Below, piece after piece: positions 28,133-56,712 of a DNA stretch of 64,000 bases. The stretch is taken from contig JANXCW010000003.1 of the NCBI GenBank assembly GCA_025059775.1, positions 144,284-208,283 of the forward strand. Direction: 5' to 3'. The first letter of the stretch is position 1. Every line of letters begins with the position of its first letter. A model generated the notes under the pieces. That model worked only from the letters and a program-made list of their open reading frames with translations, had not been told where the DNA came from and did no database searches. The translations under genes were made by a program, and so were the position numbers. Origin of the DNA: Armatimonadota bacterium (GTDB lineage: Bacteria; Sysuimicrobiota; Sysuimicrobiia; Sysuimicrobiales; Sysuimicrobiaceae).

Positions 28133-28765
28133 TCAGGAGGTGGGTTCGGCCTCGTCGGATTTGCAGAGGAGGTCCACCAGGGCGACCAGTTGGTGCAGCC
28201 CGGGGTGGGAGCTGGCCTGGCGGACCCTGGTGGCCAGGGCGGGTAACCAGCTGCTCACGTGTTCCCGCAGGAAGGACCGCCGAGCCTGGCTGCACACCTC
28301 CGCGTCTTCTTCACGGCCTACGAGGCACGCGCACGCCTCCTGCGTGCACACGAAGGCCAAAAACTCCAGCTGAGCGGCCAGGTGGTCTGGACGGTCGCCG
28401 CGGGCCTCGAAGCCAAACGCCCGGTAGAACCCAGCGATGTCCGCAATCTGCTGCAGATTCGGCCCGCCCAGGGCAGGCGAGGCCTGGGCGGCGTAGCTGG
28501 CCGCGTACGGCGGGACCGAGCCGCGCTCGAAGACGCGTGCGTACTCCGTGCGGTAGGCCTCCGGGTCTTGTTCCACCTGCTCGAGGAAGGCGCGGAAGCG
28601 GGCTCGGCCCTCGGTGAGCTCCAGCTGTGCCAGGCTCCGGTCCAGCCACTCCACCGAGTCCCGCGGGACCGCGCCGCCGCTCCACGGTGCCAGCAGCCTC
28701 GCGCAGGCTCCGTATGCTACCGCCCTGGCCAGCAGGCGCCGGGGAGCTCCGCAATCTGTGCTCAC
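28133..28765 (-). CDS. TorD/DmsD-like molybdoenzyme chaperone (delta subunit)
   Basis: The start is GTG 28765, overlapping the preceding gamma-subunit stop. The 210-residue, all-helical protein carries the TorD-family pattern YRTEYARVFERGSVPPYAASYA followed by IAGFYRAFGFEARGDRPDHLAAQLEFLAFV, typical of chaperones that insert molybdenum cofactor and guard twin-arginine export of catalytic subunits. The gene is the last of an alpha-beta-gamma-delta set, the usual place for such a chaperone. No redox centre is expected. Confidence 0.85.
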   Translation of the reverse strand: MSTDCGAPRRLLARAVAYGACARLLAPWSGGAVPRDSVEWLDRSLAQLELTEGRARFRAFLEQVEQDPEAYRTEYARVFERGSVPPYAASYAAQASPALGGPNLQQIADIAGFYRAFGFEARGDRPDHLAAQLEFLAFVCTQEACACLVGREEDAEVCSQARRSFLREHVSSWLPALATRVRQASSHPGLHQLVALVDLLCKSDEAEPTS

Positions 28766-29664
28766 GGTTCCACCCGCAGCTGGCCCAGGAGGGTGATGGA
28801 CTTGCGGGCTCCCCGGTCGCCGTGGGCCCCCTGCCACACCCCGAAGGCCACCGCGTACGTGCCACCCGGACGGAGCGTGATCTCCTTGGGATCAGCGGCG
28901 CGAAGGGGCTTGCCGAGCACCACCCGCCACCGCCCCTCCTTCCAGGTACCTCGTCCCGCGGCGTTCTGGGTCGGTAGCTGTTCCAACGTCCCGGCTCCCT
29001 GCGCTACCAACTTCTCCACGGGGCTGGCCTTGCGGGGCTGGGAGAGGGGGTTGCCCACGTGCCACCCGGGCAGCCACCGGCGGGCTTCAGGGGGATAGGC
29101 GTCCGGGAGTTTCGGCGGGTGCTGCGCACCCACCAGAGGCGGGTAGAAGTCGAAGGCCACGTTGGGAAACGCCGTCTCGAGGTCCTGGAAGCCTGCGTCC
29201 ACGTCCAGCTGCCAGTCTGCGCGCCAGTGCAGCACCGTCGCCGGCGTCTTCGGCGTCCCCATCATCCACTCGGTGGCGCCCGCACCCGCGGGCAAGAGCA
29301 TGACCCCGCATCCGTCTTTGAACTCCCGGCTTTTGACCGTCCTCCGATCCGGACGGGGGTCCTGCCACTCCAGGAGGAACGCCACCCGTTGGCCGTCGTG
29401 GGCGGCGCGGACCCGCAACGAGGCCACGGACGGACGTATCTTGGTGGGCAGCGCCATGGCCTGGCCCACCAGACCGACCTCTGTGGGCGGCACGCTGCGC
29501 CAGACCTCCGCCTCGGGATCCACTGCCAGGGGTGCGGGGACACGCAGCGCCCGCAGGTCGGGCTGGGCGGAGGGCTGTGCCGGCGCCGAGGAGGGCAGGG
29601 CAACTGTGCCCAGAGCTGCGAGTCCGGCCAGGGCCTGACGTCGGGTGATCTTTTGGACCGCCAT
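28762..29664 (-). CDS. Gamma subunit of DMSO-reductase type II enzyme (heme b, NxrC/EbdC-like)
   Basis: A twin-arginine-like signal (KITRRQALAGLAALGTVAL) leads a 300-residue beta-rich protein. The region RAAHDGQRVAFLLEWQDPRPD and the later LPDAYPPEARRW resemble the heme-binding gamma subunits of ethylbenzene dehydrogenase, selenate and chlorate reductases and NxrC-type proteins. These are periplasmic and hold one heme b between Met and Lys or His. It lies directly after the iron-sulfur subunit and overlaps the chaperone gene. It would pass electrons between the beta subunit and a soluble or membrane carrier. Confidence 0.8.
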   Translation of the reverse strand: MAVQKITRRQALAGLAALGTVALPSSAPAQPSAQPDLRALRVPAPLAVDPEAEVWRSVPPTEVGLVGQAMALPTKIRPSVASLRVRAAHDGQRVAFLLEWQDPRPDRRTVKSREFKDGCGVMLLPAGAGATEWMMGTPKTPATVLHWRADWQLDVDAGFQDLETAFPNVAFDFYPPLVGAQHPPKLPDAYPPEARRWLPGWHVGNPLSQPRKASPVEKLVAQGAGTLEQLPTQNAAGRGTWKEGRWRVVLGKPLRAADPKEITLRPGGTYAVAFGVWQGAHGDRGARKSITLLGQLRVEP

Positions 29665-29673
29665 GGGAGCACC

Positions 29674-30813
29674 TCAGGTGACGTTGTACCGGTAGGCCCG
29701 GTGGTCCGGGTCGTAGGCGGGCCGGACCATGGTGGGCTCCTTGAGGGGTACGCGCACCACCTCCTCCCCGCGGTCGTCGTACCCATACACGAGCCCCCGG
29801 GCGACCCGGAAACGGTGCACGATCCGGTCCGTGGACACCGCCAGCAGGAGCACGCCCCGCAGCTCCTCATCCTTCCCCTCCATGGCCCGTCGGTAGGTGG
29901 CCGCGGCCTGCTCCACGCCGGGTCCGAAGAGCATCTGGAGGAACCGGAGGTTGCCCACGTGCACGGGCGGGATGTAGTACACGTTCGCCTCCAGACCCAG
30001 CTGCGGAAGTAGCGGCAGGGCCACCTTGCGCACGTGGACGAGGAAGTCCACGGGGTTGTCGGGGCGTGCCCGGTCTGGGGTGCTCACGAACCCGAAGGTC
30101 CGGATCTTCCCGATACAGGTACGCATGCAGCGGGGCTGGATCCCCCGTTCCACCGCGGGGAAGCAGAGCACGCACTTCTCCGACACCCGGGTGGTGTGGT
30201 TGTAGAAGACCTTCTTGAACGGGCACTCCTTCAGGCACTCACGGTACCCGCGGCACCGCTGCTGGTCCAGAAGCACGATGCCGTCCTCGGGCCGCTTGTA
30301 GATGGCCGTGCGGGGGCAGCTGGCCAGGCACGCAGGGTACGTGCAGTGGTTGCAGATGCGGGGTAGGTAGAAGAACCACAGGTCGTGGGGCAAGCGCAGG
30401 TAGAAACGCTCCTCCGTGAGGGGCGCGTTCGTCTCGTCCTCTCCCCGGTTCGGATACGCGTAGTCCAGGTCCTCGGGGAGGTAGCCCAGGGCGCGCTCGC
30501 CCGCTGGCGCCGCCTCGAAGACGGTCTTGCCCCGGTAGACGCCGCCCTCCCAGGTCTGCGGACCGAGCCTTTCCAGAATCCGCACGTCCCACGCCAGGGG
30601 GTAGGAGCCCCAGGGCTTGGTCTCCACGTTGTTCCAGAACATGTACTCCTGGCCCTTACCGGACGTCCACGTGGTCTTGCAGGCCATGGTGCAGGTCTGG
30701 CAGGCGATGCACTTGTTGGTGTCGAACACCGCCGCCGCCTGCCGACGGGGCCGTTGGCCCTCGAAGGGGTAGTCCATCTCCCGGCCGATCTGCCAGTTGT
30801 ACACCTTCGGCAT
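29674..30813 (-). CDS. nxrB: Iron-sulfur beta subunit of NXR/Nar-type enzyme (NxrB/NarH-like)
   Basis: ATG 30813 gives 379 residues starting MPKVYNWQIGREMDYPFEG, very like NxrB starts. Four Cys clusters are clear: CIACQTCTMACK; CNHCTYPACLASCPR; CRGYRECLKECPFKK; and CVLCFPAVERGIQPRCMRTC. They would hold three 4Fe-4S and one 3Fe-4S or fourth cluster; the CRGY site has Tyr where the third-position Cys is replaced (Trp in NarH). The tail NVYYIPPVHVGNLRFLQMLFGPG is the family C-terminal signature. It follows the alpha gene by two bases. It has no signal of its own, so it is probably exported with alpha. Confidence 0.9.
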   Translation of the reverse strand: MPKVYNWQIGREMDYPFEGQRPRRQAAAVFDTNKCIACQTCTMACKTTWTSGKGQEYMFWNNVETKPWGSYPLAWDVRILERLGPQTWEGGVYRGKTVFEAAPAGERALGYLPEDLDYAYPNRGEDETNAPLTEERFYLRLPHDLWFFYLPRICNHCTYPACLASCPRTAIYKRPEDGIVLLDQQRCRGYRECLKECPFKKVFYNHTTRVSEKCVLCFPAVERGIQPRCMRTCIGKIRTFGFVSTPDRARPDNPVDFLVHVRKVALPLLPQLGLEANVYYIPPVHVGNLRFLQMLFGPGVEQAAATYRRAMEGKDEELRGVLLLAVSTDRIVHRFRVARGLVYGYDDRGEEVVRVPLKEPTMVRPAYDPDHRAYRYNVT

Positions 30814-30815
30814 AA

Positions 30816-33800
30816 CTACCTCCGCTTCAAGACGATGAACTCCCCAGCCAGGTACCGGCGCACCGCCTCCGACTCGAAGCGGGGTCGGAAGCCTTGCGCC
30901 GCGGGCGCCCACAGGCCCTTGCCGTCCTCCCCACCGGACTCGGCGCGACGGATCCGTACGTAACTCTCCTTCGGCGCACCGATAGCCCCGTGGACGTCGA
31001 GGGAAAAGCCAGTGGCCAGGACCTGGCCAATGGTTTCTTTGCGAACGAGGCTGTCCGTCAACAGCGTGGGCCGGAGCCACGCGCGGGTCACGGACTGATG
31101 ACTGCCATACCGGTAGGCGGCCTGGTAGTTGGTCCGAGGGTTCTTGGCCAATCCGTCCCGGCGCTTCTCGTGCCCCTCCACGCTCCCGTGGGTGGCTACG
31201 TAAAAGTGGAACCAGGCGCGGCCGGTCCCCTGCATGATGCTCGGGTAGTAGCGGGCCCGGACGAGCCAACGGAAGATGCGCCGCTCCTCCGGCCTGCGCT
31301 CGTAGCCTACGAACGGGCGGTCCTGTGGGTCAGCCTCGCACCACACGTAGTCTCCGTCCGCGATCCCCAAGCGTCGCGCGTCCTCGGGGTTCAGGTCGAT
31401 GTAGCCCTCGCTGACCCAGGGCTTGCGGCGGTCGTGCCGGTAGAAGTCTCCGAAAGGCCCCCAGAAAACCACGTCCAGGTCCGTGCTGGCTCCCGTGGAG
31501 TGGCAGGCGTGGCGGTACTTGGGGGTGATCAAGACGTGCGTATAGCCGATCTTGCGCAGGGGGTGGCGGCTCGCCACGACCTCCTCGGGGCTGCGGATCA
31601 CGTTGCGGACCTGCCGGACTTCGGTGCGGAGGTCTTCCGTTCGCAAGCCGTACGCCTCCGGGGGAGCCGGCCGCAAGGCGGGGTGTGGCTTGGCCACGAT
31701 GACGTTGGGCTCATGGTGGGTCCCGTCCACGGGCTCCCGGTGGACGGGTAGGTTCTCCCCGTGCTCGAGGAATTCGTCCTCCTCCCGGTAGAACTCCAGG
31801 CGGCCTGTCTTCGTGTACCAGGGCTTGCTCTCCTGGGTCTGCTCCCAGCCCACCACCCTGGGGCTGGTCCGGGTGAGCAGGTACAGGGGTGTGCCATTGC
31901 GGCAGCTTTCGAGGAGCTGCCGGTAGGTATAGCCACGGGTGGTGTTGCCTGCCCGGAAGACGCGGTCGATGTACACCTCCGGCTTGCCCGTGAGCACGAA
32001 GTGCCAGTAGTCGCGGAACCGGCGGTCCCCCGTGAGCTCGGCGAGCTTCCCTGCCACCCCGGCCCAGCACTCGAGGTCATCCCGGGTGTCGAACAGGCGC
32101 GGGAGAGGGGAGGGAGGCCAGGCCTGAAGGAAGGGATTGGTCACGGCGGCATACACGTCGTGGAGCTTGCGTTCGACCCAGGAGTCGACCGCGAACACCA
32201 CGTCGGCGTACTCGCAGGTGGCGGTCCAGAACCAGTCCGCCACCACCACCATTTCCACCTTCGGGAGGGTGTTCACCACGAGGTTGTACGCCCACTTGGC
32301 GTTGCCGAGGATGGAGTTCGTGTTGGCCCACAGGGCAGCCTTCGTCGGGGTCGGCATGTGGGTCTTCCCGGTAAATTGCTTGCGGCCCACCCGCAGCGGC
32401 CGGTCGTCGTAGTTGAAGAAGTGCGCCGACTCGCCCCTCCAGTACGCCCGGACGCGGGCTGCCCGGTCAGGGTCGAGCTCCGGATGGAAGGGGTCCTCGT
32501 GGATGTACTGGACGATGCCGGGAAGTAAGGCCAAGCGGTAGTTGCCCGCGTAGCTCCCCACCGTGCCCCCGAAGTGGCCGACGTTGTTGCTGAGAGCCGC
32601 CACCAGGATGATGGCGCGGTCCTTCAGATCGGCGTTGAAGAAGTGGTTGGGGCCCATGCCGGTCACGAACAGGGTCTTCGCCTTGTTCTGGGCGATCTGG
32701 CGTGCCAGGTTCACCACGGCCTGTGGCGGGGCTCCGGTGATCCGGCTGGCGTTCTCCGGTGTCCACGTGTCCAGGAGGTACTGCTTCAGGAGGTCGAACA
32801 CAGGCCGCACGGCCACCCGCCTCCCGTCCCGGAGCGTTACCTGGAACTCTCCTTCGAGGGCCGGGTCGAGCCCCGTGGCTGCGAAGTGACGGCCCACCTG
32901 GTCGCGGGTGACCGGTTTCGGGGAGTTGGTCCTGCGGTCCCACACCACGAAGTCGTCCCACTCCTCCCGCAGGGCTTGAGGAATGAGCTGCGCCTCTTGC
33001 TCCGCGGGCGGGGGGATGGGTTCGCCGGGCTGCAGGACCCGGGTGCCGTTCCGTAAGGGTGCGGGCCGGTGGTCCGAGAACACGTCCCGGGCCCGCAGCT
33101 CCTTGAGTGTGTCCATGCGGACCAGGAGCGGCAGGTCCGTGAACTGCTTGACGAAGTCCTCGTCGTACAGCCGCTCGCGAAGGAGGACCTGTGCTAGGCC
33201 CAGGGCGAAGGCGGGGTCGGTGCCCGGCCGGATCACGATCACCTCGTCCGCCTTGGAGCTGCTGGACTGGTACTCGGGGGCGATGGTGACCACGCGGGCG
33301 CCGTGCAGCTTGGCCTCCGTGAGCCAGTGGCCGTCCGGCATCTTGGTGGCGATCCAGTTCTTGCCCCACAGAAGAATCAGGCGCGCGTTCTCCGCGGTAT
33401 ACAGGTCGAAGTCCAGGGTCTGCTGCCCCGTGACCATGGGGTGTCCAGGGGGTAGGTCGGTGTGCCAAGCGTAGTTGTCCCAGCCGCGGCCGCCCTTGGC
33501 CTCCTCCGGCCCCACCTTGCGGACGTAGGCGTCCAGCAGGGCGACCATATTGGCCATGCGGTACAATCCCCCAGTGCGGAACGGCGCGATGAAGGGCATC
33601 CCACCTCGGAACTTGAGCGTGCGGGTGCCGGCCCCTTCCATGGCCTCCACCATGTCGGGGTCGTAGCCCTGTCGCAGGAGCCGCTGTCTGCCGACCTCCC
33701 CGGAGTACGTCTGCGCGATGTTCAGCAGTGCCTTCGCCACGTACGTGAACGCCTCGTCCCAGCTCACCCGGACGAACTCCTCCTTGCCGCGTCCCTCGAA

Positions 33801-34358
33801 GTAGCCCGCGGGCGGCGCGCCTGTTTCGGGGTCACGGGGGAACCCTGCGTCCACCCACTCCTTGAAGCCCTTGCGGACCATGGGGCCCTTGACGCGGCGG
33901 TCGGAGTAGAACCGCCGCACGTACGCGAGCCCGCTGATGCAGATGCGCGGGTCCCACCGGGCGGAAGCCTGGTTGCCGTACAGGTCCGTGGCTTTGCCGT
34001 AGCCGAAGCTGGGGTCCGCGTACACCACCACGCCGTTTTTCACGCTGGCCCGCAGCAGGCACCCGTGGGTGTCGTTGGGCGCGCACAGGTAGTGGAAGGT
34101 CAGTTCGGGGGTGTACAGCTCCCGGTAGACCTTCTCCCAGTCCCGGTTGGGGTACTTCTGCAAGGGGTTCGTGCCGGGCTCGAGGGGCTGCAGCACGGAG
34201 AAGCTGAGCAGTTCGTCCGGAAGCTCGAGTCCCGCAAGGGCTGCCGCAGCGGCCGGAAGGCTGGCCAGGAACTCCCGGCGGGTCAGGCGAAACGTCGGAC
34301 CCAACGGACCCACCTCCTTCCGCGAGGCCTCGAAAGCACGATAGGCAGCGTGCCGCAC
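30816..34358 (-). CDS. nxrA: Molybdopterin alpha subunit, nitrite oxidoreductase/nitrate reductase type
   Basis: The 1180-residue catalytic subunit has a twin-arginine signal (RLTRREFLASLPAAAAA, residues 24-40), so it works outside the cytoplasm. The proximal 4Fe-4S site reads C92-x3-D96-x3-C100 with C140 downstream; NarG has H-x3-C-x3-C. The Mo-ligand Asp is predicted as D301 in TDLPPGHPMVTG, aligned with CDLPPASP of NarG. FKEWVDAGFPRDPETGAPP and GKATDLYGNQASARWDPR are hallmarks I associate with the NXR, anammox and archaeal-type nitrate reductase branch. Direction (nitrite oxidation or nitrate reduction) cannot be read from sequence. It heads an alpha-beta-gamma-chaperone operon. Confidence 0.85.
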   Translation of the reverse strand: MRHAAYRAFEASRKEVGPLGPTFRLTRREFLASLPAAAAALAGLELPDELLSFSVLQPLEPGTNPLQKYPNRDWEKVYRELYTPELTFHYLCAPNDTHGCLLRASVKNGVVVYADPSFGYGKATDLYGNQASARWDPRICISGLAYVRRFYSDRRVKGPMVRKGFKEWVDAGFPRDPETGAPPAGYFEGRGKEEFVRVSWDEAFTYVAKALLNIAQTYSGEVGRQRLLRQGYDPDMVEAMEGAGTRTLKFRGGMPFIAPFRTGGLYRMANMVALLDAYVRKVGPEEAKGGRGWDNYAWHTDLPPGHPMVTGQQTLDFDLYTAENARLILLWGKNWIATKMPDGHWLTEAKLHGARVVTIAPEYQSSSSKADEVIVIRPGTDPAFALGLAQVLLRERLYDEDFVKQFTDLPLLVRMDTLKELRARDVFSDHRPAPLRNGTRVLQPGEPIPPPAEQEAQLIPQALREEWDDFVVWDRRTNSPKPVTRDQVGRHFAATGLDPALEGEFQVTLRDGRRVAVRPVFDLLKQYLLDTWTPENASRITGAPPQAVVNLARQIAQNKAKTLFVTGMGPNHFFNADLKDRAIILVAALSNNVGHFGGTVGSYAGNYRLALLPGIVQYIHEDPFHPELDPDRAARVRAYWRGESAHFFNYDDRPLRVGRKQFTGKTHMPTPTKAALWANTNSILGNAKWAYNLVVNTLPKVEMVVVADWFWTATCEYADVVFAVDSWVERKLHDVYAAVTNPFLQAWPPSPLPRLFDTRDDLECWAGVAGKLAELTGDRRFRDYWHFVLTGKPEVYIDRVFRAGNTTRGYTYRQLLESCRNGTPLYLLTRTSPRVVGWEQTQESKPWYTKTGRLEFYREEDEFLEHGENLPVHREPVDGTHHEPNVIVAKPHPALRPAPPEAYGLRTEDLRTEVRQVRNVIRSPEEVVASRHPLRKIGYTHVLITPKYRHACHSTGASTDLDVVFWGPFGDFYRHDRRKPWVSEGYIDLNPEDARRLGIADGDYVWCEADPQDRPFVGYERRPEERRIFRWLVRARYYPSIMQGTGRAWFHFYVATHGSVEGHEKRRDGLAKNPRTNYQAAYRYGSHQSVTRAWLRPTLLTDSLVRKETIGQVLATGFSLDVHGAIGAPKESYVRIRRAESGGEDGKGLWAPAAQGFRPRFESEAVRRYLAGEFIVLKRR

Positions 34359-34387
34359 CGTGCAGGCACACTACCCGACCGATCCTG

Positions 34388-34404
34388 CGGACTTTTTCTG
34401 TCCG
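34388..34404. other. Small stem-loop upstream of nxrA
   Basis: CGGAC (34388-34392) and GTCCG (34400-34404) flank a TTTTTCT loop 30 bases before the alpha-subunit start. It lies in the leader region of the minus-strand operon. Its role is unknown. Confidence 0.3.
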
Positions 34405-34413
34405 TACCTGCTT

Positions 34414-34465
34414 GATACCCCATCGGGAGGTGTAGATCCATCGGTTCTCGACCCGATGGGGTATC
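34414..34465. repeat. Perfect 14-bp inverted repeat between yeeE-like gene and nxrA
   Basis: The arms GATACCCCATCGGG (34414-34427) and CCCGATGGGGTATC (34452-34465) are exactly complementary, with a 24-base spacer. The element fills the 124-base gap between the transporter and the molybdoenzyme operon. No T run follows on the minus strand, so it is not a classic terminator. It could be a large operator, an mRNA-processing hairpin or a dispersed repeat. Confidence 0.6.
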
Positions 34466-34482
34466 GGGTGTAGGCCCGAACT

Positions 34483-35586
34483 TCAGAGAAATCTCCGGCC
34501 TACGAGGAAAGTAGTTGCCCTCAGCCCTGCCCGGGCCCCCAGGTACAGGCCCAGGGCGTAGATCCAGCCGTCCACCCGGAGGGTGGCCACCGCGCTCCAG
34601 AAGCCGGAGACGTTGCAGCCGATGGCTACCCACACCGCCACGCCCATGCCCACCCCGCCCAGGAATCCCGTGAGCGCCTCCCGCATCCGCCACGCCCGGA
34701 ACCCCGCGAATTCCCCGGCCAGCAGGGCTCCGGTGAGGGCCCCCAGGATGAGGCCCACGTCCAGGTGGAATCCCGGATCGAGGGCCGGGATGCGCATCCC
34801 CCAGTACCGGGCCCACGGAAGGTCCCGGACCCCGGGATCCACGGTTCCGGCTGCCCACAGCACGAACCGCGCCAGGGGCAGCTGCACGCCCAGGGCGGAG
34901 TGGTACGCGAACTGGATCACGAAGAGGAGGGCAAACGCGGTCCCGCCCACCCATGCGGGCCAGGGGTGCTCGAAGACCCGTTCCAGGAAGGTTCCCGGGT
35001 TGGCGGCAGAAGGCACGGGGCTGGGCCGTGGCCCGAGGCGCAGGTACAGAACGCTCAGGGCGGCCAGGTTGAGGACAGTGGCAGGCCCCAGGCCGATGAG
35101 GTCCGGAAGGAAGATCCGCCACCCCTGATCCAGGAGCCGTTCCGTGAGGGGCCACGTATAGGCGGCACCGAGGCCGTTCCCTACGAGGATTCCCAGAAAA
35201 GCCGCGAGGCTCTTGGACTGTCCCGTGCCCAGGCGGTACAGGGTTCCCGTCATACATCCGCCTGCGAAGGGCATGGAGAACCCGAAGAGGGCAGATCCCA
35301 CCAGGGTGTGCAGGCCGAAGGGGATGCGGGGGGGACGATTCCACCCCAGTGCCATCACCAGCGCGGAGCCCGCGGACGCCACGGCCAGGCCCAGGAGGAT
35401 GCCCCGCAGGAGTTCCCGGTTTCCGTAGAAAGCGGAGGCAAAGCACAGCCTGGTACGCTGCAGCACGAAGCCGTAGCCCAGCCCCAGGAGGAGCAGCACC
35501 GCCGCGGCCTGCAGGCCCTGCGTCCAGGCCAGTCCCGCCGTGACCGCGGTTAGGGCCACCACCGCCGCGGCGGCACCCAGGTTCAT
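34483..35586 (-). CDS. YeeE/YedE-family sulfur-compound transporter (TsuA type)
   Basis: A polytopic membrane protein of 367 residues with about nine to ten helices. The two homologous halves carry the Cys motifs of the family: RTRLCFASAFYG, FAGGCMTGTLYRLG and AIGCNVSGFWSA. In TsuA these Cys line the path that relays thiosulfate through the membrane. ATG 35586 is chosen because the sequence before it is not hydrophobic. With TusA-like and sulfide-dehydrogenase genes upstream on the same strand it probably imports thiosulfate or a related sulfur species, or handles sulfane sulfur. Confidence 0.85.
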   Translation of the reverse strand: MNLGAAAAVVALTAVTAGLAWTQGLQAAAVLLLLGLGYGFVLQRTRLCFASAFYGNRELLRGILLGLAVASAGSALVMALGWNRPPRIPFGLHTLVGSALFGFSMPFAGGCMTGTLYRLGTGQSKSLAAFLGILVGNGLGAAYTWPLTERLLDQGWRIFLPDLIGLGPATVLNLAALSVLYLRLGPRPSPVPSAANPGTFLERVFEHPWPAWVGGTAFALLFVIQFAYHSALGVQLPLARFVLWAAGTVDPGVRDLPWARYWGMRIPALDPGFHLDVGLILGALTGALLAGEFAGFRAWRMREALTGFLGGVGMGVAVWVAIGCNVSGFWSAVATLRVDGWIYALGLYLGARAGLRATTFLVGRRFL

Positions 35587-35590
35587 CCGG

Positions 35591-36028
35591 TCACTCCTCC
35601 ACGATGAACTCCCCGTACATGGTGGCGTCGTGCCCCGGTACCGTGCACACATACCGGTACCGGCCCGGCCGATCCGGTACGAACCGGATCTCCTCCCGCT
35701 CCCCCGGGCCCAGCACCCGGGTCCTCGCGCCGGAGAAGACCGGCTCCAGATACGGGGCCCGCTCCCGCGGGCCCACCACCCAGAGGTCGTGCTGCAGGCT
35801 ATCCCGGTTCTCCAGCATCAGCCGCACCGGCCGTCCCACTCTGACCCGGAGAAGGGGGCCGGGGATGCGGCCTCCGAACCGCATCCCCGGATCTGCGGTC
35901 ACCACGAGAACCTGTTCCCCTACCGATGCGCGGCTCCGAACCTGGCAGCCCGTGAGGAGAGCCGCGAGGAGGATCACACAGGCGTTCCCGATCAGCCGTA
36001 GGCGGCCCGCAGGATCCCGTACTCCCAC
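35591..36028 (-). CDS. Cupredoxin lipoprotein
   Basis: GTG 36028 begins inside the end of the flavoprotein gene and yields a lipoprotein signal ending LLAALLTGC. The mature domain is a cupredoxin with a complete type 1 copper site: His in LQHDLWVV, then Cys, His and Met in YVCTVPGHDATMYGEF. About 100 mature residues form the beta sandwich. A membrane-anchored blue copper protein beside a sulfide dehydrogenase flavoprotein that lacks a cytochrome partner suggests it is that enzyme's electron acceptor, or a donor and acceptor for the molybdoenzyme (inference). GTG 35977 is an alternative start with an unusually short signal. Confidence 0.82.
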   Translation of the reverse strand: MGVRDPAGRLRLIGNACVILLAALLTGCQVRSRASVGEQVLVVTADPGMRFGGRIPGPLLRVRVGRPVRLMLENRDSLQHDLWVVGPRERAPYLEPVFSGARTRVLGPGEREEIRFVPDRPGRYRYVCTVPGHDATMYGEFIVEE

Positions 36029-37257
36029 CGTTTCCGATCCTCCACGTGCTTGGGGCTGGCGGGTGCGGTTCGGCTGCGAGCTCCCACGGGCCGTCCCTCC
36101 CGGTCCCACGCGGCCTCCACGAAGAGGGCCTCCCGGCGCGAGACGTACGGCCAGCACTGGTTGAACACAGGGTCGGGCTCTCCCCGGTCGCGGCCCAGGG
36201 CCCGGGCGATGGCGTAGGCGGCGTTGCGGCCCTGCAGGAAAGCCGTGAACGCGCTCTTGGTGTACGGGGAGGCGGCCACGTCGCCCATGGCGTACACGTT
36301 CTCGTGGCTGCGGCTGCGCCAGGTGGCGGGGTCGATGGGGATGAAGGGCGCTCCCAGCCCCGCCTCCTCCACAAAGAGCGGCGCCCGCTGGGACGGGATC
36401 ACGCTCGCGAGGTCGAACCGCTGCCGCTCGCCCCGGTCGGAGATCAGGGTTCGGGTGGCGGGGTCCAGCTCCACCACCTTGAAACTGGGCTTGTAGACGA
36501 TGCCCTTCTCGGAGAGCACCCGGCGCCACAGGTCCGCGAGGGCCGGCGGTTGGGGCCGGTCGCTGCTGTCGAGCACCACCACCTCCGCCCGGATCCCCTT
36601 GTTCCTCCAGTATTCCTGCACCAGGCACGCGATCTCGTAGGGGCCGGGTGGGCACTTGTAGGGCGGAGGAGGTACCGCGATGACGAACGTGCCGCCCCGG
36701 AACGCTTCCACGGCCCGGCGGAGCTCCAGGGTTCCCGCCCAGGTCCACGCATGCGGGCTCAGCCTGCGGTTCTCCAGGAGGTTGCGGATCTCGTCCTCCG
36801 CGGGCACCAGACCCGTGGCCACCGCGAGCACCGTGTACTCGATAAAGCCCTGGGGCGTGATCACCCGGTTGTCCCGCAGGCGCAGCCCTGTAACGGGTGC
36901 CCGGATGACCTGGATCCCGTCCCGCTGGAGCCCCTCGAAGGTCACCGTGACCTTTCGGGGATCCTCCAGTCCCACGATGTAGTCCACGTGGGAGGGCCCG
37001 GACACATAGCTGGGATTGCGCTCCAGCACCACCACCTCCACGTCCGGGGCCAGCTTGCGCAGGGTCCGGGCGCACATGGCGCCGCTGATTCCTGCCCCCA
37101 CGATCACCACCCGGCGGGTGGGGCGAGGGAGGATGGGCCGGCTGGGCTCCTGCGCCACGGCCCAGCCCAAGAACTCCTCCCCAAAGCTTCCCGTGGCCGC
37201 GGCCAGGGTGGCCCCACCCAGGACCTTGAGGACCTGCCTTCGCGTGAGCCGATCCAT
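35992..37257 (-). CDS. fccB: Sulfide dehydrogenase flavoprotein (FccB-like)
   Basis: The 421-residue protein has a twin-arginine signal (DRLTRRQVLKVLGGATLA) and an FAD-binding Rossmann fold (RRVVIVGAGISGAMCARTL). It matches the flavocytochrome c sulfide dehydrogenase flavoprotein: Cys in PPYKCPPGPYE and Cys in FNQCWPYVS are the pair that forms the redox disulfide over the flavin. The NVYAMGDVA segment binds FAD, and the C-terminal domain is of FccB type. No fccA cytochrome gene is adjacent; a cupredoxin overlaps its 3' end instead. Periplasmic oxidation of sulfide to sulfane sulfur is the likely reaction. Confidence 0.87.
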   Translation of the reverse strand: MDRLTRRQVLKVLGGATLAAATGSFGEEFLGWAVAQEPSRPILPRPTRRVVIVGAGISGAMCARTLRKLAPDVEVVVLERNPSYVSGPSHVDYIVGLEDPRKVTVTFEGLQRDGIQVIRAPVTGLRLRDNRVITPQGFIEYTVLAVATGLVPAEDEIRNLLENRRLSPHAWTWAGTLELRRAVEAFRGGTFVIAVPPPPYKCPPGPYEIACLVQEYWRNKGIRAEVVVLDSSDRPQPPALADLWRRVLSEKGIVYKPSFKVVELDPATRTLISDRGERQRFDLASVIPSQRAPLFVEEAGLGAPFIPIDPATWRSRSHENVYAMGDVAASPYTKSAFTAFLQGRNAAYAIARALGRDRGEPDPVFNQCWPYVSRREALFVEAAWDREGRPVGARSRTAPASPKHVEDRKRWEYGILRAAYG

Positions 37258-37268
37258 GCTTCACCCCC

Positions 37269-38054
37269 TTAGGTACACGTGGCGATGTAGTTCAGGACTT
37301 CGGGTGTGGCGATGACCTGATAGGAGAAGACAAGATCCTGCCCTTCCGCCACCAGGTATCGGTCCTCGTAGTCCGTGAGGTGCAGTTCCAAGGCAGTGCG
37401 GTCGGAGGAGGTCACCAGGCAGCTTTCGGGTCTGCACCGGCTCTCTAGGGAGGCCCGTCCGTCCCGCACCTCCAGGTAGTCCCGGGTCCTCAACACGCCC
37501 ACGGTTCCCTTCCCAGCACGCACCTCCACCCGGAGGATGGTGCCGGGCACGAGCTGGTAGACGGGAAGCAACAGCCGCGTGCCCCGTATCTGAACCGTGC
37601 CCTGGTTGCGCACAAGGTTCTGGCCCCTGCGCAATCGGGCCATGGACTCCTCGACGGTGCCGGGCTCGTACCGGAGGACGGTCTCCCCGGGCTGCAGGTG
37701 ACGGAGGCGTACATAGAACGTACTCCCCGAGTCGCTCGCGAGCGGGTAGCGGAGGGCTTTCATGTGGGTGAACACCCGGGCGGTGCGGGGGATCTGCCCA
37801 GATCGGAACTGCGCGAGCTCGTTCGCGTCTCCCGTGTGCTCGTAGATCACCACCTCCACGAGTCCCTGGGTGTGCACCTCCAGCACTGTGCGCTCCCCCG
37901 GTCGCACCACCCGCTCTTGCACGGTATCTTCCCGGAAGACCAGGGTCTGCGCCCGGGCCTCCCCCCCTGAACCCTCTCCCCCGGAGAGGAGCATCTGGGA
38001 CGCGAGGAACCCGTTGAGCAGCAGCGCCAGGAGAAAAGCGGGCCACCGCACCAT
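37269..38054 (-). CDS. Secreted protein of unknown function in the sulfur cluster
   Basis: I do not recognise this 261-residue protein. It has a signal peptide (residues about 1-37, MVRWPAFLLALLLNGFLASQ, then a Gly-rich stretch ending ARAQT). The mature part is rich in beta-strand-like sequence with no membrane helix. Cys residues occur in SRCRPESCLVTSS and near the end (IATCT). It stands 11 bases upstream of fccB and downstream of the TusA-like gene on the same strand, so a role in periplasmic sulfur chemistry or complex assembly is plausible only by context. Confidence 0.7.
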   Translation of the reverse strand: MVRWPAFLLALLLNGFLASQMLLSGGEGSGGEARAQTLVFREDTVQERVVRPGERTVLEVHTQGLVEVVIYEHTGDANELAQFRSGQIPRTARVFTHMKALRYPLASDSGSTFYVRLRHLQPGETVLRYEPGTVEESMARLRRGQNLVRNQGTVQIRGTRLLLPVYQLVPGTILRVEVRAGKGTVGVLRTRDYLEVRDGRASLESRCRPESCLVTSSDRTALELHLTDYEDRYLVAEGQDLVFSYQVIATPEVLNYIATCT

Positions 38055-38072: not shown

Positions 38073-38345
38073 TTAGCGCATCCGGCGGATCCGGAACCGG
38101 TAGATCCCGTCCTGCCTCCCCAGGGGCTCGACCTCGTGGCCTGCCAGGTGGGCCCAGTTCCGGAGGTCGGCTTCGGCCTGGGGATCCGTTGCGAGCACCT
38201 CCAGCACCTGCCCAACGTGAAGGCCGCGGAGAGCTTCCTGGGTCTTCAAAAGCGGCAGGGGGCACAGCAGCCCCCGACAGTCCAGGACCGCGTCCGCGGG
38301 CCTTTCCGCCTCGGGTGCGGCCTTTTCCGGGATGTCCGTGCGCAT
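38073..38345 (-). CDS. tusA: TusA/SirA-family sulfur carrier protein
   Basis: The 90-residue protein holds the family motif DCRGLLCPLPLLKTQEAL, in which the Cys of CPxP carries persulfide sulfur. The C-terminal strand pattern (GQVLEVLATDPQAEADLRNWA) is also typical. In sulfur oxidisers TusA-like proteins deliver sulfane sulfur in the cytoplasm. Being the first gene of a minus-strand run that includes a YeeE-type transporter and FccB, it probably receives imported sulfur (inference). The 17-residue acidic N-terminal extension is unusual. Confidence 0.9.
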   Translation of the reverse strand: MRTDIPEKAAPEAERPADAVLDCRGLLCPLPLLKTQEALRGLHVGQVLEVLATDPQAEADLRNWAHLAGHEVEPLGRQDGIYRFRIRRMR

Positions 38346-39720: not shown

Positions 39721-41014
39721 CTATGGTTCCTGCAGGAGGATCGGGGTCGGGGCGGGTGAGCCCACCCCACCCCGCAGGGACCGCCAGGCCGAGATCAGGA
39801 ACCATCCGCCCCCGCAGGCGGCGAGCACACCGGAGATGGCCAGGAGGGTGAGGGGAAGGGTCCACGGGTGCGGGCCCGACAGGTAGGCCTTGCGGGGCAT
39901 CCCGGATCCCGCGGCCACCAGCAGCGCGGCCACCGTGAGTACGGCTCCGCTTCCGAAAAGGTGCAGCTGAGCCCTGCCTGCGCGCGGCAGGACCTCGCAC
40001 CCGTTTTCCTCCAGAATCCGGTACACCATGCCCACGAAGGCGGTGGTGACCCCGCCTACCAGCATGGCATGGTAGTGGGCGGTGATCCGGAGGGTCTGGG
40101 CAGCACCGATCGGTGCGAGGATCCCGCCCAGCAGGTACAGCCCCACGGACCACTCCAAGGCCGACCGCTCAAGAAGGCCACCGGGCCGCGGGGGGAGCGC
40201 TGCGGATACGCTGTACAAGCACCCAAAGGTGCACCAGGGTGGGGACACTCAGGCCAAGGCCCAAAGCCGCGTTTTTCAGGCTCCAATCCGGCATGCCGGA
40301 TGGGTCGGGTGCCAAGTACAGCAGGGAGGGGAGAAAGGCGAGGAGGCCGGAGAGGGCGTAGGCGGTGCGCACCGGGGATCTGTGCGTAGGCGCGATCCTC
40401 CATCCGGCCTCTGCCAGGGCATGCCAGGCGAGGGCCAGGGCCGTCACGTACACGAACTGCAAGGCGTGCCCCGCTCCCCACAGGGCCGCCTGCGGGTGGT
40501 CCCCTCCCACTCTCAGAAGACCTACTACGGCCCCCAAGAGCGTGGCCCCATACGCCAGGGCCAGGCATCTGGCACCCCATCGGGGAGTCTCCGGGCACGC
40601 CGCCCGTGCAAGCGGCGCAAGCGCCAGGAGGACTCCGAAGGCCAGGAAGAGGTATCCCGCCCAATACAGGGGGGAAGCCACGAACGGCAGGTAGTCCACC
40701 ACCACGGGCCGACCGGGGAGCGCAAGTCCCGCGAGCAGGCACCCGAAGCCCAGGGCGGCCAGACGCAGACCCGATGTGGGCGGTCGGAGGCACGACAGAT
40801 GGAGGGCCACCGCGGTGCTGCACCCCAGCAGCCACACCACCAGGGAGAAGGTGACGTGCCCCACCAGGGTCTTGTAGAAGGCCTCAGGAGGAATCCCGTG
40901 TGCAAACAGCGGTAGCCTTCCTCCGGTGATGAGAACGGCCAGCACGCCCGCCGTGGCCGCGGCGGCAAGACTGAGCCTCACCCACTCCACCACGCCGCGG
41001 CCGTTGGCATCCAT
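39721..41014 (-). pseudogene. Heme-copper-oxidase-like subunit I, one frameshift
   Basis: Two frames join near 40190-40200, beside a run of six G, to give one membrane protein of about 430 residues from ATG 41014. Histidines expected of the superfamily are present: YKTLVGHVTFSLVVWLLG (low-spin heme, helix II), WGAGHALQFVYVTALALAW (copper site, helix VI) and RITAHYHAMLVGGVTTAF (helix X heme pair). The HPEVY motif and the double His of canonical oxidases are absent (VPTLVHLWV has one). It may be an atypical NO reductase-like or oxidase-like protein. The homopolymer break could be a sequencing error. Confidence 0.6.
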
Positions 41015-41021
41015 GCGTCCC

Positions 41022-42374
41022 TCAGTGCCCGATGGGCCACGAGCGGGACAGGTTCCAGTAGTTGCCCAGGTACATGAAGACGAAGAAAGCCGCGAACAGC
41101 AGACACAGGACGAAGGTGCCGGGGACCGCGGGAACTTCCCTTGCCCCGTGTCCTGGGTTGCCGCCGAGCGGCAGCGCGTACTGCCGGCGCAGTTCGTCGT
41201 CGGTAAGCCGCTTTCCGAGCAGGACCGTGGCCACCACCAGGACCACGAACGGGGCACCGCCCAGCAGGGCCAGTATCCCCCCGACCCCGGCCACCGCCAG
41301 GAGTCGGTAGACCTCGTCCGGCCATGCGAAGGCCAAGGGCAACCCCCGGAACCGGAAGATGTCCGGCTGCTTGCGGGGAAGTCCGTACCGGACGCCCAGC
41401 TGCAGGTAGGCCAGAACCAGGAGGCCGACGCCGACCCCGAACAGCCACGGCTGCCACCGGGCCCAACGCTCCCCCACCACACGGCGGTTGATCCACTTCC
41501 ACCCCACGGACAGCGCCCCGCTGGGCTCTGTTTGCAGGTGGTGGGCGCTCCCCAGGTTGATGGCGACCAGGTACAGGACGAAAGCCGCGCGAGACACCTT
41601 CTCGCTCGGCGTGCGGCCGCCCACGGTGAGCTGCGCCAGCAGGTACCACACCGCTACCGTGGCAGCCAGGTTGATTTGCTGGGACGGATGGGCAAAACCC
41701 CAGTACACCAGCTTCCAGAGGAATGGATCCAGGTGCGCCAGCAGCCCCGCGGACCACGGCAAGGCAGGTACGAAGACCAGCGCGCCCACCAGCAGGGTGG
41801 CCACCGCCAGCACCGCGCCCACGGTATCCGCCACGCTCACGTCCTCGCACCCCATCTCCAGCAACTCCAGGGCGATCCTCCGGACGGTCCGCGGATCCGC
41901 CCGGCCGCTGTAGGGGCACCACCACGCCACGCTGATGTAGCCGCGCACCGACATCCCTTCTCGGTGCGCTTCCCGTACCACCTCCCGGAAGGTCCGCAAA
42001 GACGCCTCCACCGTCATCCCCAGATTGGCCTGGGCGAAGGCGTCCGTGGCCGCGGTGAACACCGCAATGGTCCGGACCCCGCAGGCGACGGCCCGTTGCA
42101 ATCCCCGCAGGTTTGGAACCAGCGCGATGTGGTGGACTCCTTCCCGCGGCCGCAGGCGGTGCACCACCTCCTCCGTGTCCGCCATCTGAGGTACCCGATC
42201 TGGCCGCACGAACGACCCCACCTCGATCCACCGCAGCCCTGCCTCCGCCAGGGCCTCGATGAAGGCCACCTTGACGTCCGTGGGGAGGATCTCGGGCTCG
42301 TTCTGGAGGCCGTCCCGGGGGCCCACCTCCACCACCCGGACGGTAGAGGGAAGGGAATCGAGGGGAACGGTCAT
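41022..42374 (-). CDS. Chimeric frame: N-terminal HMG-CoA lyase joined to partial B-type heme-copper oxidase
   Basis: One open frame of 450 residues holds two unrelated pieces. Residues 1 to about 187 are HMG-CoA lyase (VEVGPRDGLQNEPEILPT; IEVGSFVRPDRVPQMADTEE), the last leucine-degradation enzyme, cut at SVADTVG before its catalytic His and Cys loops. From about 188 the sequence is a heme-copper oxidase: helix VI with YWGFAHPSQQINLA and helix VII with NLGSAHHLQTEPSG. Helices I-IV are missing, and near residue 295 the sequence jumps to the end region (GERWARWQPWLFG, YGLPRKQPD), losing the helix X heme ligands. Neither part can be an active enzyme as it stands. A deletion junction or an assembly misjoin near 41813 must be involved. 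Confidence 0.7.
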   Translation of the reverse strand: MTVPLDSLPSTVRVVEVGPRDGLQNEPEILPTDVKVAFIEALAEAGLRWIEVGSFVRPDRVPQMADTEEVVHRLRPREGVHHIALVPNLRGLQRAVACGVRTIAVFTAATDAFAQANLGMTVEASLRTFREVVREAHREGMSVRGYISVAWWCPYSGRADPRTVRRIALELLEMGCEDVSVADTVGAVLAVATLLVGALVFVPALPWSAGLLAHLDPFLWKLVYWGFAHPSQQINLAATVAVWYLLAQLTVGGRTPSEKVSRAAFVLYLVAINLGSAHHLQTEPSGALSVGWKWINRRVVGERWARWQPWLFGVGVGLLVLAYLQLGVRYGLPRKQPDIFRFRGLPLAFAWPDEVYRLLAVAGVGGILALLGGAPFVVLVVATVLLGKRLTDDELRRQYALPLGGNPGHGAREVPAVPGTFVLCLLFAAFFVFMYLGNYWNLSRSWPIGH

Positions 42375-45128: not shown

Positions 45129-46677
45129 TCACATGCGGAACACCCCGGGCTTCATCCCCTCGATGGGCGCGTTCAGCGCCACCGACAGGGCCAGGCCGAG
45201 GGCATCGCGGGTTGCGGTCGGCTCCAGGATCCCATCGTCCCACAGCCGGGCGGTGCTGTAATAAGGACTTCCTTCCCGCTCGTACTTCTCCAGGATGGGA
45301 CGCGCGATGGCCTCCTCCTCCGGAGAGAGGGCCTTGCCTTCCCGCCGGAGCTGCTCCCGCTTCACCGTGGCCAGGACCTCCGCGGCCTGCTCCGGCCCCA
45401 TGACGGTGATGCGGGCGTTGGGCCACATCCACAGAAAGCGCGGCTCATAGGCCCGGCCGCGCATGGCGTAGTTCCCGGCCCCGTAGGATCCTCCGATGAT
45501 CACCGTGAACTTCGGCACCTGGCAGGTGGCCACTGCGTGCACCATCTTGGCTCCCGCTCGGGCGATGCCCGCGGCCTCATACTGCCGGCCCACGATGAAC
45601 CCCGTGATGTTCTGCAAAAACACGAGAGGAATCCGGCGCTGGCCGCACAGCTCGATGAAGTGGGCGCCTTTCTCGGCGCTCTCCACGAACAGCACCCCGT
45701 TGTTCGCTACGATCCCCACCAGGATCCCATGGAGGCGAGCGAAGCCGCACACCAGGGCGATAATCTCCCGGACGTCGTAGGGCTGCCGCAGGTCCCCGGG
45801 GCAGGATCCCGTAGATCTCCTCGGGGTCGTAGTAGGGATCCTCGGGCGGGGCCACGTCCACCTCCGGCGGGGCTTGCGGCGATTCAGGGTAGTCACGATG
45901 GCACGCACGATGCGCAGCGCCTCCCACTCGCTTTCCGCATAGTGCTCCACCACCCCGGAGCGGCGGGCGTGCACGTCCGCGCCGCCTAGCTCTTCCGCGG
46001 TGACGTCCTCTCCGGTGGCGGCCTTGGCCAGCGGCGGACCCGCGAGGAAGATGGTGCCGCTCCCCCGCACGATCACCGCCTCGTCGCTCATGGCAGGGAC
46101 GTAGGCGCCACCCGCGGTGCACATCCCCAGCACCGCCGCGATCTGGGAGATCCCCAGAGCGCTCATGCGGGCCTGGTTGTAGAAGATGCGGCCGAAGTGG
46201 TCCCGATCCGGGAACACCTCCGCCTGCAAGGGCAGATAGACGCCGCCGGAGTCCACCAGGTAGATGCAGGGGAGGCAGTTCTGGAGAGCGATCTCCTGGG
46301 CCCGCAGGTGCTTTTTCACCGTCAGGGGGAAGTACGTGCCGCCCTTGACGGTGGCGTCGTTGGCCACGATCATGCACTCCACCCACCCGGCCGATCCCTG
46401 TGACCAGGCTCGCCCCCGGCGCCTCGTTGTCGTACATCCCCCAGGCCGCCAGGGGCGAGAGTTCGAGGAAAGGGGAGCCGGGATCCAGGAGGTGTTCGAT
46501 GCGCTCTCGGGCGGTGAGCTTGCCGAGCTGCCGCTGTCGGCGCAGGGCCCGCTCTCCTCCCCCTTGGCGGACCCATCGGAGCCGCTCCCGGAGCTCCTCG
46601 ACGAGCCGCAGGTGGTGGGCCCGGTTCTGCCGGAACTCCTCCGTGTCCGTGTGCACCCGGGACGGGATCCGCTCCAT
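45129..46677 (-). pseudogene. Methylcrotonyl-CoA carboxylase carboxyltransferase subunit, three frameshifts
   Basis: ATG 46677 begins [17 protein letters not shown]. The conserved [19 protein letters not shown] lies in one frame up to about 46395. From [20 protein letters not shown] another frame takes over and includes the signature [15 protein letters not shown] and [18 protein letters not shown]. Between about 45890 and 45803 the first frame is needed again ([20 protein letters not shown]), after which the second frame resumes with [12 protein letters not shown] and ends normally ([11 protein letters not shown]). The breaks are single-base G losses or gains (the first could be +1 or -2). 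The intact protein would be LiuB/MccB of leucine degradation. Confidence 0.78.
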
Positions 46678-46759
46678 AGGGCCCCACGGGCAGGATACAC
46701 CAACTCTCCACTCTGCGCAGTTGTCCAAGATCCTCCCGGGGGGATACCATCGAACCGGC
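46678..46759. other. Divergent intergenic gap between carboxyltransferase and acyl-CoA dehydrogenase genes
   Basis: The 82-base gap lies between two outward-reading starts and should hold the promoters of the leucine operon (minus) and of the dehydrogenase-etf operon (plus). I could not identify a convincing promoter pair or operator. Confidence 0.4.
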
Positions 46760-47869
<1,110 letters not shown>

Positions 47870-47873
<4 letters not shown>

Positions 47874-48658
47874 ACGTGGTGGTGTGCATCAAGCAGGTGC
47901 CGGATACCGAACAGCCCATCCGGGTGAGGTCGGATGGGAGCGGCATCGAGGAGCAGGGCATCAACTGGATCCTCAACTACTACGACGAGCACGCGGTGGA
48001 AGAAGCGCTCCGTCTGCGGGAAAGGCATGGGGGGCGTGTGACCGTGGTGTGCGCAGGCCCCGCCCGGGCCACGGAGGCCATCCGCACCGCGCTCGCCATG
48101 GGCGCAGATGAAGGAATCCTCGTGAGCGACCCGCTCCTGGAGGAGGCGGACCACCTGGGCCTGGCGCGGGCCCTGGCACGGACCATCCAGCGCCTCAGCT
48201 GGGACGTGGTGCTGTGCGGCCGGCTTGCCACGGACGATAACGCGGCGGTGGTGGGCCCCGCCCTGGCGGAATTCCTGGGTGTCCCGCAGGCCACCGCCAT
48301 CACCAAGCTGGAGATCACAGACGGCATGGCCCGCGTGGAGCGGGAGGTGGAGGGGGGCGTGGAGGTGCTGGAGGTACAGCTCCCGGCCGTGTTCAGCGTG
48401 GAGCGCACCATCAACGAACCCCGATATCCCACGCTTCCGGGCATCATGCGGGCCAAGCGCCAGGAGATCCGAACCCTAACCCTGGCGGATCTGGGTCTTG
48501 CAGGCTCCGAGGCGGGGGGGGAGGCAGCCCGGGTGCGGTACATGCGCTTTGATCCGCCGCCCCGGCGGGAAGCGGGGGAGGTGATCCGGCCGGAGAGTCC
48601 GGAGGAGGCGGCGGAGCGGATCGCGGCGTTCCTGCGGGACGTGGCGAAGGTGCTGTAG
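47870..48658 (+). CDS. etfB: Electron transfer flavoprotein beta subunit
   Basis: The 262-residue protein starts [19 protein letters not shown] and has the AMP-binding and interface segments of EtfB ([50 protein letters not shown]). ATG 47870 overlaps the dehydrogenase stop, so the two are coupled. Together with etfA it takes electrons from acyl-CoA dehydrogenases. The gene is intact, unlike its upstream neighbour. Confidence 0.95.
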
Positions 48659-55762: not shown

Positions 55763-56359
55763 GTGCGAATGAGGATCTGCGCGATGTTGGGAATCCTAGG
55801 CAGCCTGCTGGCCACGCCCGCCTGGGCGCACGTGGGGGTCGGCCCCACGTCCGGGTTCTCCTCCGGGGCACTCCACCCCTTGGGGGGAGTGGACCACTGG
55901 GTGGCTATGGTGGCGGTGGGAATCTGGGCGCGGTTTCTGGGAGGACGTGGGACCCTCATGGTACCGCTCGGGTTCCTCGCCAGCATGATCCTGGGCAGCC
56001 TGGTCGGAATGCAGGGCCGTGCCGTCCTCTTTGCGGAGACCGGGATCCTCGCATCCCTCGTCTTCTTCGGGGGCCTCCTGTTGGCGGCCGTGAGCCTTCC
56101 GGTTTGGCTTGGCTCGACACTCGTCGCCCTGTTCGCCTTCTTCCATGGCCACGCCCATGGCACGGAAGTCCCGCCGGGCGCGATGGGGTGGTCCTACGTT
56201 TTGGGGTTCGTGGCCGCCACGGCCCTCCTCCACCTCCTCGGGATCCTCCTCGGCGAGGGACTGTTGCGGGGCGGTGACCGCTTGCGGCGCCGCGATCTTC
56301 TGGTTCGCCTGGCGGGGCTCGGTGTGCTGGTGCTGGCCGTGGGAGGGATGCGGGCGTGA
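55763..56359 (+). CDS. ureJ: HupE/UreJ family nickel-related membrane protein
   Basis: A signal peptide ([20 protein letters not shown]) is followed by about six hydrophobic segments. The family markers [19 protein letters not shown] (with His-Pro and Asp-His) and [14 protein letters not shown] (His-rich) are present; these His and Asp residues are thought to bind nickel. At 198 residues it is of normal size. UreJ/HupE proteins supply nickel for urease or hydrogenase. Placement between ureA and ureB ties it to urease here. Confidence 0.9.
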
Positions 56360-56712
56360 TCCCGGGAGAGATTTGGGTGCAGGAAGGAGAAATCGTGCTC
56401 AATGAGGGCCGCAGGAAGGTACGCCTGCGCGTGGAGAACACCGGGGACCGGCCCATCCAGGTGGGTTCCCACGCGCACTTCTTTGAGGTGAACCGCGCCC
56501 TTCGGTTCGATCGCACGCAGGCGTATGGATTCCGGTTGGACATCCCTGCCGGCACCGCGGTCCGGTTCGAGCCCGGTCAGGTTCGGGAGGTGGAACTGGT
56601 GGAACTGGCCGGAGAGAGAAAGGTGTACGGGATGAATGGACTCGTGATGGGATCCCTGGAGCTTTATCGAGAGCAGGCTTTCGAAAGAGCCCGGGAGAGG
56701 GGGTTTCTATGA
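56356..56712 (+). CDS. ureB: Urease beta subunit
   Basis: The 118-residue beta subunit starts [19 protein letters not shown] and holds the conserved [19 protein letters not shown] and [16 protein letters not shown] segments. It overlaps ureJ upstream and ureC downstream. Nothing is unusual. Confidence 0.96.

Follow-up and report, generated by a model that had tools for sequence, protein, structure and literature searches.

A Nitrotoga-clade nitrate/nitrite molybdoenzyme beside sulfur and blue-copper genes in Sysuimicrobiaceae

The nitrite oxidoreductase (NXR) of Kuenenia stuttgartiensis (NXR-ABC, 7b04) is a solved enzyme. Its alpha subunit holds the FS0 iron-sulfur cluster through C67, D71, C75 and C115 (a 3Cys/1Asp site), binds molybdenum through D275, and presents N70 as the substrate asparagine (PMC8387239). 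Candidatus Nitrotoga, an autotrophic nitrite oxidiser, uses the Calvin cycle; periplasmic nitrate reductases (pNar) of the Hydrogenobacter thermophilus type have been put with its NXR in one Nitrotoga/pNar clade (PMC6050957). Nxr/Nar genes of the phylum Sysuimicrobiota were already published in 2024 (PMC11604079). We describe the genes nxrABCD and their neighbors in a stretch of 64,000 nucleotides, here called the window, from a hot-spring member of the Sysuimicrobiaceae, a family of this uncultured phylum (assembly GCA_025059775.1, contig JANXCW010000003.1, positions 144,284 to 208,283). The enzyme adds one member to a known kind of nitrate/nitrite molybdoenzyme. What is new here is its sulfur and blue-copper neighborhood and the exchange of nxrAB between genera; we did not find these described in the parts of PMC11604079 that we consulted.

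The window enzyme resembles Kuenenia NXR in its subunit set, its 3Cys/1Asp FS0 site, molybdenum-binding aspartate and substrate asparagine, the Met/Lys heme b of its gamma subunit, and export through the twin-arginine translocation (Tat) pathway. It differs in clade (the catalytic subunit, NxrA, is about 42% identical to anammox NxrA from Brocadia) and in the molybdenum-ligand loop: HTDLPPGHP in the window, HGDQAPGHP in Kuenenia. The NXR of Nitrotoga shares its clade and its ABCD gene set; identity is nonetheless 49%, the Nitrotoga loop reads HTDLAPGCP, and the molybdenum ligand is followed by Q-M where the window has Q-T. Periplasmic nitrate reductases of the clade (Thiomargarita and haloarchaeal homologues) are likewise exported and fall in the same clade of our tree, but are about 49–51% identical. 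Closest outside the family, at about 68–72% identity, are Nxr-like proteins of Nitrososphaeria, Bacterium HR24 and Acidimicrobiia/Dehalococcoidia; unlike the window, their loci have no TusA, FccB or YedE neighbors in the flanks examined.

Catalytic subunit and partner proteins

The nxrA gene (positions 30816–34358, minus strand, as are all features below unless noted) is an intact open reading frame (ORF) with a GTG start. It encodes the molybdenum catalytic (alpha) subunit, NxrA/pNarG, of 1180 amino acids, which is predicted to be Tat-exported. The gene is under purifying selection (nonsynonymous-to-synonymous rate ratio, dN/dS, about 0.10–0.12 against three relatives) and is therefore not a chance ORF. 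A sequence search of the PDB identified Kuenenia NXR-A (7b04_B) as the nearest solved protein, with 934 bits and E 9e-280 over an almost full-length alignment. Other solved enzymes scored far lower: perchlorate reductase 208 bits, ethylbenzene dehydrogenase (EbdA) 146, and NarG about 140.

An earlier, sequence-only reading of this DNA had pointed to a Tat signal, a C92-x3-D96-x3-C100 motif with C140, and the molybdenum ligand D301; all of these are there, in register with 7b04, and a script confirmed the positions of the five ligand residues. The twin arginines R27-R28 (34275–34280) are invariant in 62 of 62 relatives. C92, D96 and C100 (34059–34085) match Kuenenia C67, D71 and C75, and within the motif N95 matches the substrate-site asparagine N70. 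C140 (33939–33941), the fourth FS0 ligand, aligns with C115, and D301 (33456–33458) aligns with D275 in the HTDLPPGHP loop; both are invariant. D96 occupies an FS0 ligand position and would, by homology, bind iron; the comparison with 7b04 supports a 3Cys/1Asp cluster. NarG has histidine and cysteine at the columns of C92 and D96, and here, too, the alignment bore out the contrast drawn by the earlier reading.

That reading had also proposed a full alpha-beta-gamma-chaperone set, and the remaining three genes lie directly beyond nxrA. The nxrB gene (29674–30813) encodes the iron-sulfur (beta) subunit with four clusters (366 bits to NXR-B, 7b04_A; TIGR03478 under its cut-off). The product of nxrC (28762–29664) is a heme-b gamma subunit with a signal peptide and an EB_dh Pfam match; its predicted axial ligands, M135 and K288, align with M155 and K305 of Kuenenia NXR-C (7b04_C). 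Last comes nxrD (28133–28765), for an assembly chaperone of the TorD/NarJ type (Nitrate_red_del 68 bits, TIGR03482 71 bits). The traits of the periplasmic branch are thus all present: a Tat signal on the alpha subunit, an ethylbenzene dehydrogenase-type heme-b gamma subunit, and a TorD-type chaperone. Four relatives in the same family carry nxr genes. Three sets are intact; the fourth (genome G035, locus L098, G035:C2:44000-63900) is decayed, with internal deletions and stops in nxrA, nxrC missing and nxrB mostly retained.

Placement among related enzymes

We built a first tree of 64 rows and a second, careful tree of 36 rows with an approximately unbiased (AU) test; the group tested was chosen after inspection of the first tree. 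Both sample the clades without Hydrogenobacter or Nitrospina, with the EbdA, PcrA, SerA, ClrA and DdhA sequences also outside, and Nitrospira rows were recognized through about 59% identity to Brocadia NxrA together with their repeated copies. In the first tree, window NxrA falls inside a clade of 47 rows (SH-aLRT 97) that holds Nitrotoga NXR, Gallionella/Ferrovum, Thiomargarita, haloarchaea, Planctomycetes, Myxococcota, Actinobacteria and Nitrososphaeria. The sister clade comprises Nitrospira, Brocadia, Methylomirabilis and other Sysuimicrobiota families. The second tree supports the Nitrotoga/pNar clade at 91/97 and the Nitrospira/anammox clade at 100/100, and in the AU test a topology that unites the window group with the latter is rejected (p 6e-5). 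At 24 columns that distinguish the clades, window NxrA has the Nitrotoga/pNar state throughout, as Nitrotoga does; one of them is F165, which is W165 in the Nitrospira/anammox clade. Trees and columns together place NxrA in the Nitrotoga/pNar clade, sister to the Nitrospira/anammox NXR clade. Its own subgroup has 12 rows (99/100), with Nitrososphaeria and other archaea, Acidimicrobiia, Dehalococcoidia and HR24; support for HR24 as sister of window NxrA is just 86/81.

Three other assignments were rejected. Cytoplasmic NarG is about 24–26% identical to NxrA, the narG model scores 170.7 bits against a cut-off of 1084, and C/D replace H/C at the cluster; the earlier reading was right that this is no ordinary cytoplasmic NarG but a Tat-type periplasmic enzyme. 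NxrA reaches 333 bits with TIGR03479, whose cut-off is 984.75, and this sets aside an enzyme of the EbdA/PcrA/SerA/ClrA/DdhA type. Membership of the Nitrospira/Nitrospina/anammox NXR clade, with Nitrospina itself unsampled, is rejected by the AU test and the 24 columns. The sequence-only reading had taken the aspartate and the FKEWVDAGFPRDPETG block as pointers to an NXR/anammox/archaeal branch and had proposed a phylogeny with NxrA of Nitrospira, Nitrospina and anammox bacteria, pNarG and NarG. This holds for the broad periplasmic branch and for the position outside NarG; it fails for the Nitrospira/anammox sub-branch, in whose stead the Nitrotoga/pNar clade emerged. Neither pointer singles out an NXR sub-branch: FKEWVDAGFPRDPETG, which NxrA does contain, is a general block of the entire periplasmic branch, and the aspartate occurs in both clades.

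The FS0 aspartate was also rejected as a mark of nitrite oxidation. It is found in 45 of 47 members of the Nitrotoga/pNar clade and 14 of 15 of the Nitrospira/anammox clade (59/62 in total); because both have it, it cannot separate the clades, or oxidation from reduction. Cysteine takes its place in the natural nxrA of four loci drawn from both clades (L022, L090, L092 and L188), where FS0 is probably a Cys4 cluster. We caution that this residue is unusable for annotating a nitrite oxidiser.

Other Sysuimicrobiota families carry the Nitrospira/anammox type, about 44% identical to window NxrA, and the phylum holds both NXR clades, in different families. This distribution agrees with what PMC11604079 reports for Sysuimicrobiota (CSP1-3). 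The NxrA/NarG proteins of Kaftiobacteriaceae and Humicultoraceae treated there belong to the same phylum as the window but to the Nitrospira/anammox-type clade; the correspondence of these family names to our f2/f4 is presumed.

Sulfur and blue-copper neighbors

Nine minus-strand genes form one run: tusA, a gene for an exported protein, fccB-like, cupredoxin, yedE, nxrA, nxrB, nxrC and nxrD. They overlap or are separated by short gaps, except for 124 bp between yedE and nxrA. The tusA product (38073–38345) is a sulfurtransferase (TusA Pfam, 80 bits). The fccB-like gene (35992–37257) encodes a Tat-exported flavoprotein of the flavocytochrome c sulfide dehydrogenase family (1fcd_A 135 bits; FCSD_central), which retains both active-site cysteines (CPPGPYE and NxC, aligned with 1fcd_A). 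The gene at 35591–36010 encodes a blue-copper lipoprotein, a cupredoxin with His and Cys-x4-His-x3-Met ligands, recognized by cupredoxin Pfams, PDB matches to blue-copper proteins and NirK, and direct reading of the sequence. YedE (34483–35586) is a YeeE/YedE-type sulfur (thiosulfate) transporter (Sulf_transp, 143 bits). When the five products on the sulfur side were read directly, none showed a CxxCH heme motif. The cupredoxin is thus the one soluble carrier evident among them, and no cytochrome c partner subunit for the FccB-like protein was found in the operon. Scans of the operon for promoters and terminators found no signal stronger than in shuffled sequence, and our literature search found no fitting published link of FccB, cupredoxin and Nar.

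The exported protein (37269–38054) is conserved at 63–80% identity in two relatives, has two predicted beta-rich halves and is unassigned in function. Its AlphaFold model is of fair quality, with a pLDDT (predicted local distance difference test) of 78; Foldseek matches, at TM-scores of about 0.3 or lower, were uninformative, and the PDB sequence search was empty. We saw it solely in the window's family, beside fccB.

The order from tusA through yedE to nxrABCD is kept in the window genome, in its genus mate G036 and in G039, of another genus. Beyond nxrD, G036 encodes a member of the sulfite-oxidase family and a cytochrome c. In other phyla, no sulfur genes were seen in the nxrA flanks examined. 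Cupredoxin-like ORFs lie within about 8 kb of nxrA at L017 and L074. In a Thaumarchaeota metagenome-assembled genome (L022:7404-9779), the genes directly upstream of nxrA encode a membrane protein and a protein of the CuA/cupredoxin type, a possible electron partner.

The two parts of the run have different histories. In the part from tusA through yedE, G036 is nearest to the window; for fccB, synonymous divergence (pS) is 0.30, versus 0.47 to G039. The nxrA of G036, with pS 0.43 to the window, is nearer to the other genus (0.32 to G039 and 0.30 to G040), and the divergence border lies near 34360–34480. Because G036 nxrA is nearer the other genus than the window while the sulfur genes are not, nxrAB, at least, were exchanged between genera independently of the sulfur genes, which follow the genera. 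This agrees with horizontal acquisitions noted in PMC11604079. G038 has the sulfur genes without nxrA, and G040 has nxrA without a close fccB; both contigs end in yedE, at the junction. A strict functional link between the sulfur genes and nxrABCD, with the nine genes as one unit, is weakened by this distribution and by the incongruent divergence.

The window genome is 2.35 Mb and 99% complete; its wider content was surveyed through single family searches. It has two intact aa3-type oxidases, a nitrous oxide reductase (NosZ) above cut-off, a partial NirK at a contig end and a few c-type cytochromes elsewhere. G036 has a NirK that closely resembles a copper NirK of solved structure (6hbe, 544 bits). 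None of six family genomes has RuBisCO, which sets them apart from Nitrotoga. A facultative organism that denitrifies at least in part suits this setting better than an autotroph specialized in nitrite oxidation, though aerobic nitrite oxidation keeps some probability.

A further heme-copper oxidase operon is present in remnants at 39721–42374 (PF00115 fragments), disrupted in the assembly by deletions relative to G036. It is intact in G036, G039 and G040, and in G036 and G039 this CuA-type operon lies close upstream of tusA. The window lacks 345 bp and about 1.7 kb, which fuses HMG-CoA lyase to COX1. Between these two gaps, a 337-bp piece (41487–41823) matches G038, which belongs to another genus, at 94% identity and G036 at 83%, with flanks 70–74% identical to G038; this patchwork reflects either misassembly or recombination. 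At L137 (G000:C2:149298-150533) there is a 463-amino-acid COX1/CcoN-like protein, and four relatives have similar ones; inspected by eye, it is without the histidines expected at the copper site. Elsewhere in the window, HupE/UreJ, urease beta and urease alpha genes (55763–58415) follow a branched-chain-type ABC transporter and possibly serve urea uptake and use. An acyl-CoA dehydrogenase and an electron transfer flavoprotein (ETF) domain share one 752-amino-acid frame (46400–48658), perhaps through a frameshift, and are separate ORFs in G036.

Direction of the reaction and source of electrons

The sequence-only reading asked whether the enzyme oxidizes nitrite or reduces periplasmic nitrate; the question is a fair one. 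The sequence comparisons establish what the enzyme is, its cofactor ligands (through alignment), its export signal, its clade and the order of the genes; direction, electron donor and the part of the cupredoxin are what we infer here. In our judgment the most likely role is periplasmic nitrate reduction, possibly fed by sulfide, and we lean toward it with moderate confidence. NxrA would be exported through Tat with folded NxrB, and NxrC separately. Nitrate would bind at the molybdenum site (D301, N95), and electrons would pass through the 3Cys/1Asp FS0, the four NxrB clusters and the Met/Lys heme b of NxrC. The complex would chiefly reduce nitrate in the periplasm of a facultative thermophile that is capable of denitrification, probably with electrons from sulfide oxidation, moving from the FccB-like flavoprotein to the blue-copper lipoprotein to the complex. 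In its favor are NosZ and partial NirK in the genome itself, NirK in G036, and the lack of RuBisCO. The gene order conserved across two genera, the sulfite-oxidase-family and cytochrome c genes past nxrD in G036, and the coincidence in G035 of a degraded nxrA with no close fccB in its genome point the same way. Several observations weigh against it. Homology cannot fix the direction, because Kuenenia NXR catalyzes both directions in vitro (PMC8387239). The separate histories mean that the adjacency may be incidental; G038 and G040 each have one part without the close other, and 124 bp separate yedE from nxrA. The aa3-type oxidases could let O2 serve as acceptor for a nitrite oxidiser, and the closest hot-spring and Nitrososphaeria relatives recall archaeal NxrA from nitrite-oxidizing enrichments at 75 C (PMC6050957).

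A bolder form of this proposal is that the operon is a self-contained periplasmic path from sulfide to nitrate that avoids c-type cytochromes, running from FccB-like protein to blue copper to NxrC-NxrB-NxrA, with TusA and YedE handling the sulfur product; we think this improbable, though worth stating.

The alternative that survives best keeps the direction and changes the donor: a periplasmic nitrate reductase on the general respiratory chain, with the sulfur genes as chance neighbors of a mobile nxrABCD. Synonymous divergence differs on either side of the yedE-nxrA border, the G038 and G040 contigs break there, and in other phyla examined nxrA has no sulfur genes beside it. Chance is harder to reconcile with an adjacency repeated in two genera with all genes on one strand, or with the additional sulfite-oxidase-type molybdenum protein on the other side of the nxr genes in G036. 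We give this account considerable weight, short of preferring it.

A working nitrite oxidoreductase is a serious rival, if on balance an unlikely one. It would turn periplasmic nitrite into nitrate and send electrons from NxrC through cupredoxin or cytochrome c to an oxidase of the aa3 or CuA type, which passes them to O2. The two intact aa3-type oxidases and the CuA-type operon near tusA in G036 and G039 would suit it, as would the high potential implied by the Met/Lys heme b. Nitrite supports growth of Candidatus Nitrotoga, a member of the same clade, and archaeal NxrA of the clade was reported from hot-spring nitrite-oxidizing enrichments (PMC6050957). Set against this, the family has no RuBisCO, the CuA oxidase operon of the window itself is disrupted as assembled, and the sulfur-oxidation neighbors give low-potential electrons that a nitrite oxidiser does not need for NxrA. 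NosZ, plus NirK in relatives, fits nitrate/nitrite respiration, although NirK occurs in nitrite oxidisers too. That NxrA acts mainly on another substrate (chlorate, perchlorate, selenate, a hydrocarbon or dimethyl sulfide) is very improbable: type II dimethyl sulfoxide (DMSO) reductase enzymes have diverse substrates, but NxrA retains all NXR ligands and N95, scores far higher to NXR than to perchlorate reductase or EbdA, and lies far under the TIGR03479 and EbdA cut-offs.

In the Nitrotoga/pNar clade, proven nitrite oxidisers (Nitrotoga) stand side by side with nitrate reducers, and the clade may also harbor thermophilic nitrite oxidation. A phylum that holds both clades in different families, with the window type beside sulfide-oxidation and blue-copper genes, offers two tractable types to compare when asking what determines the direction in which these enzymes run.

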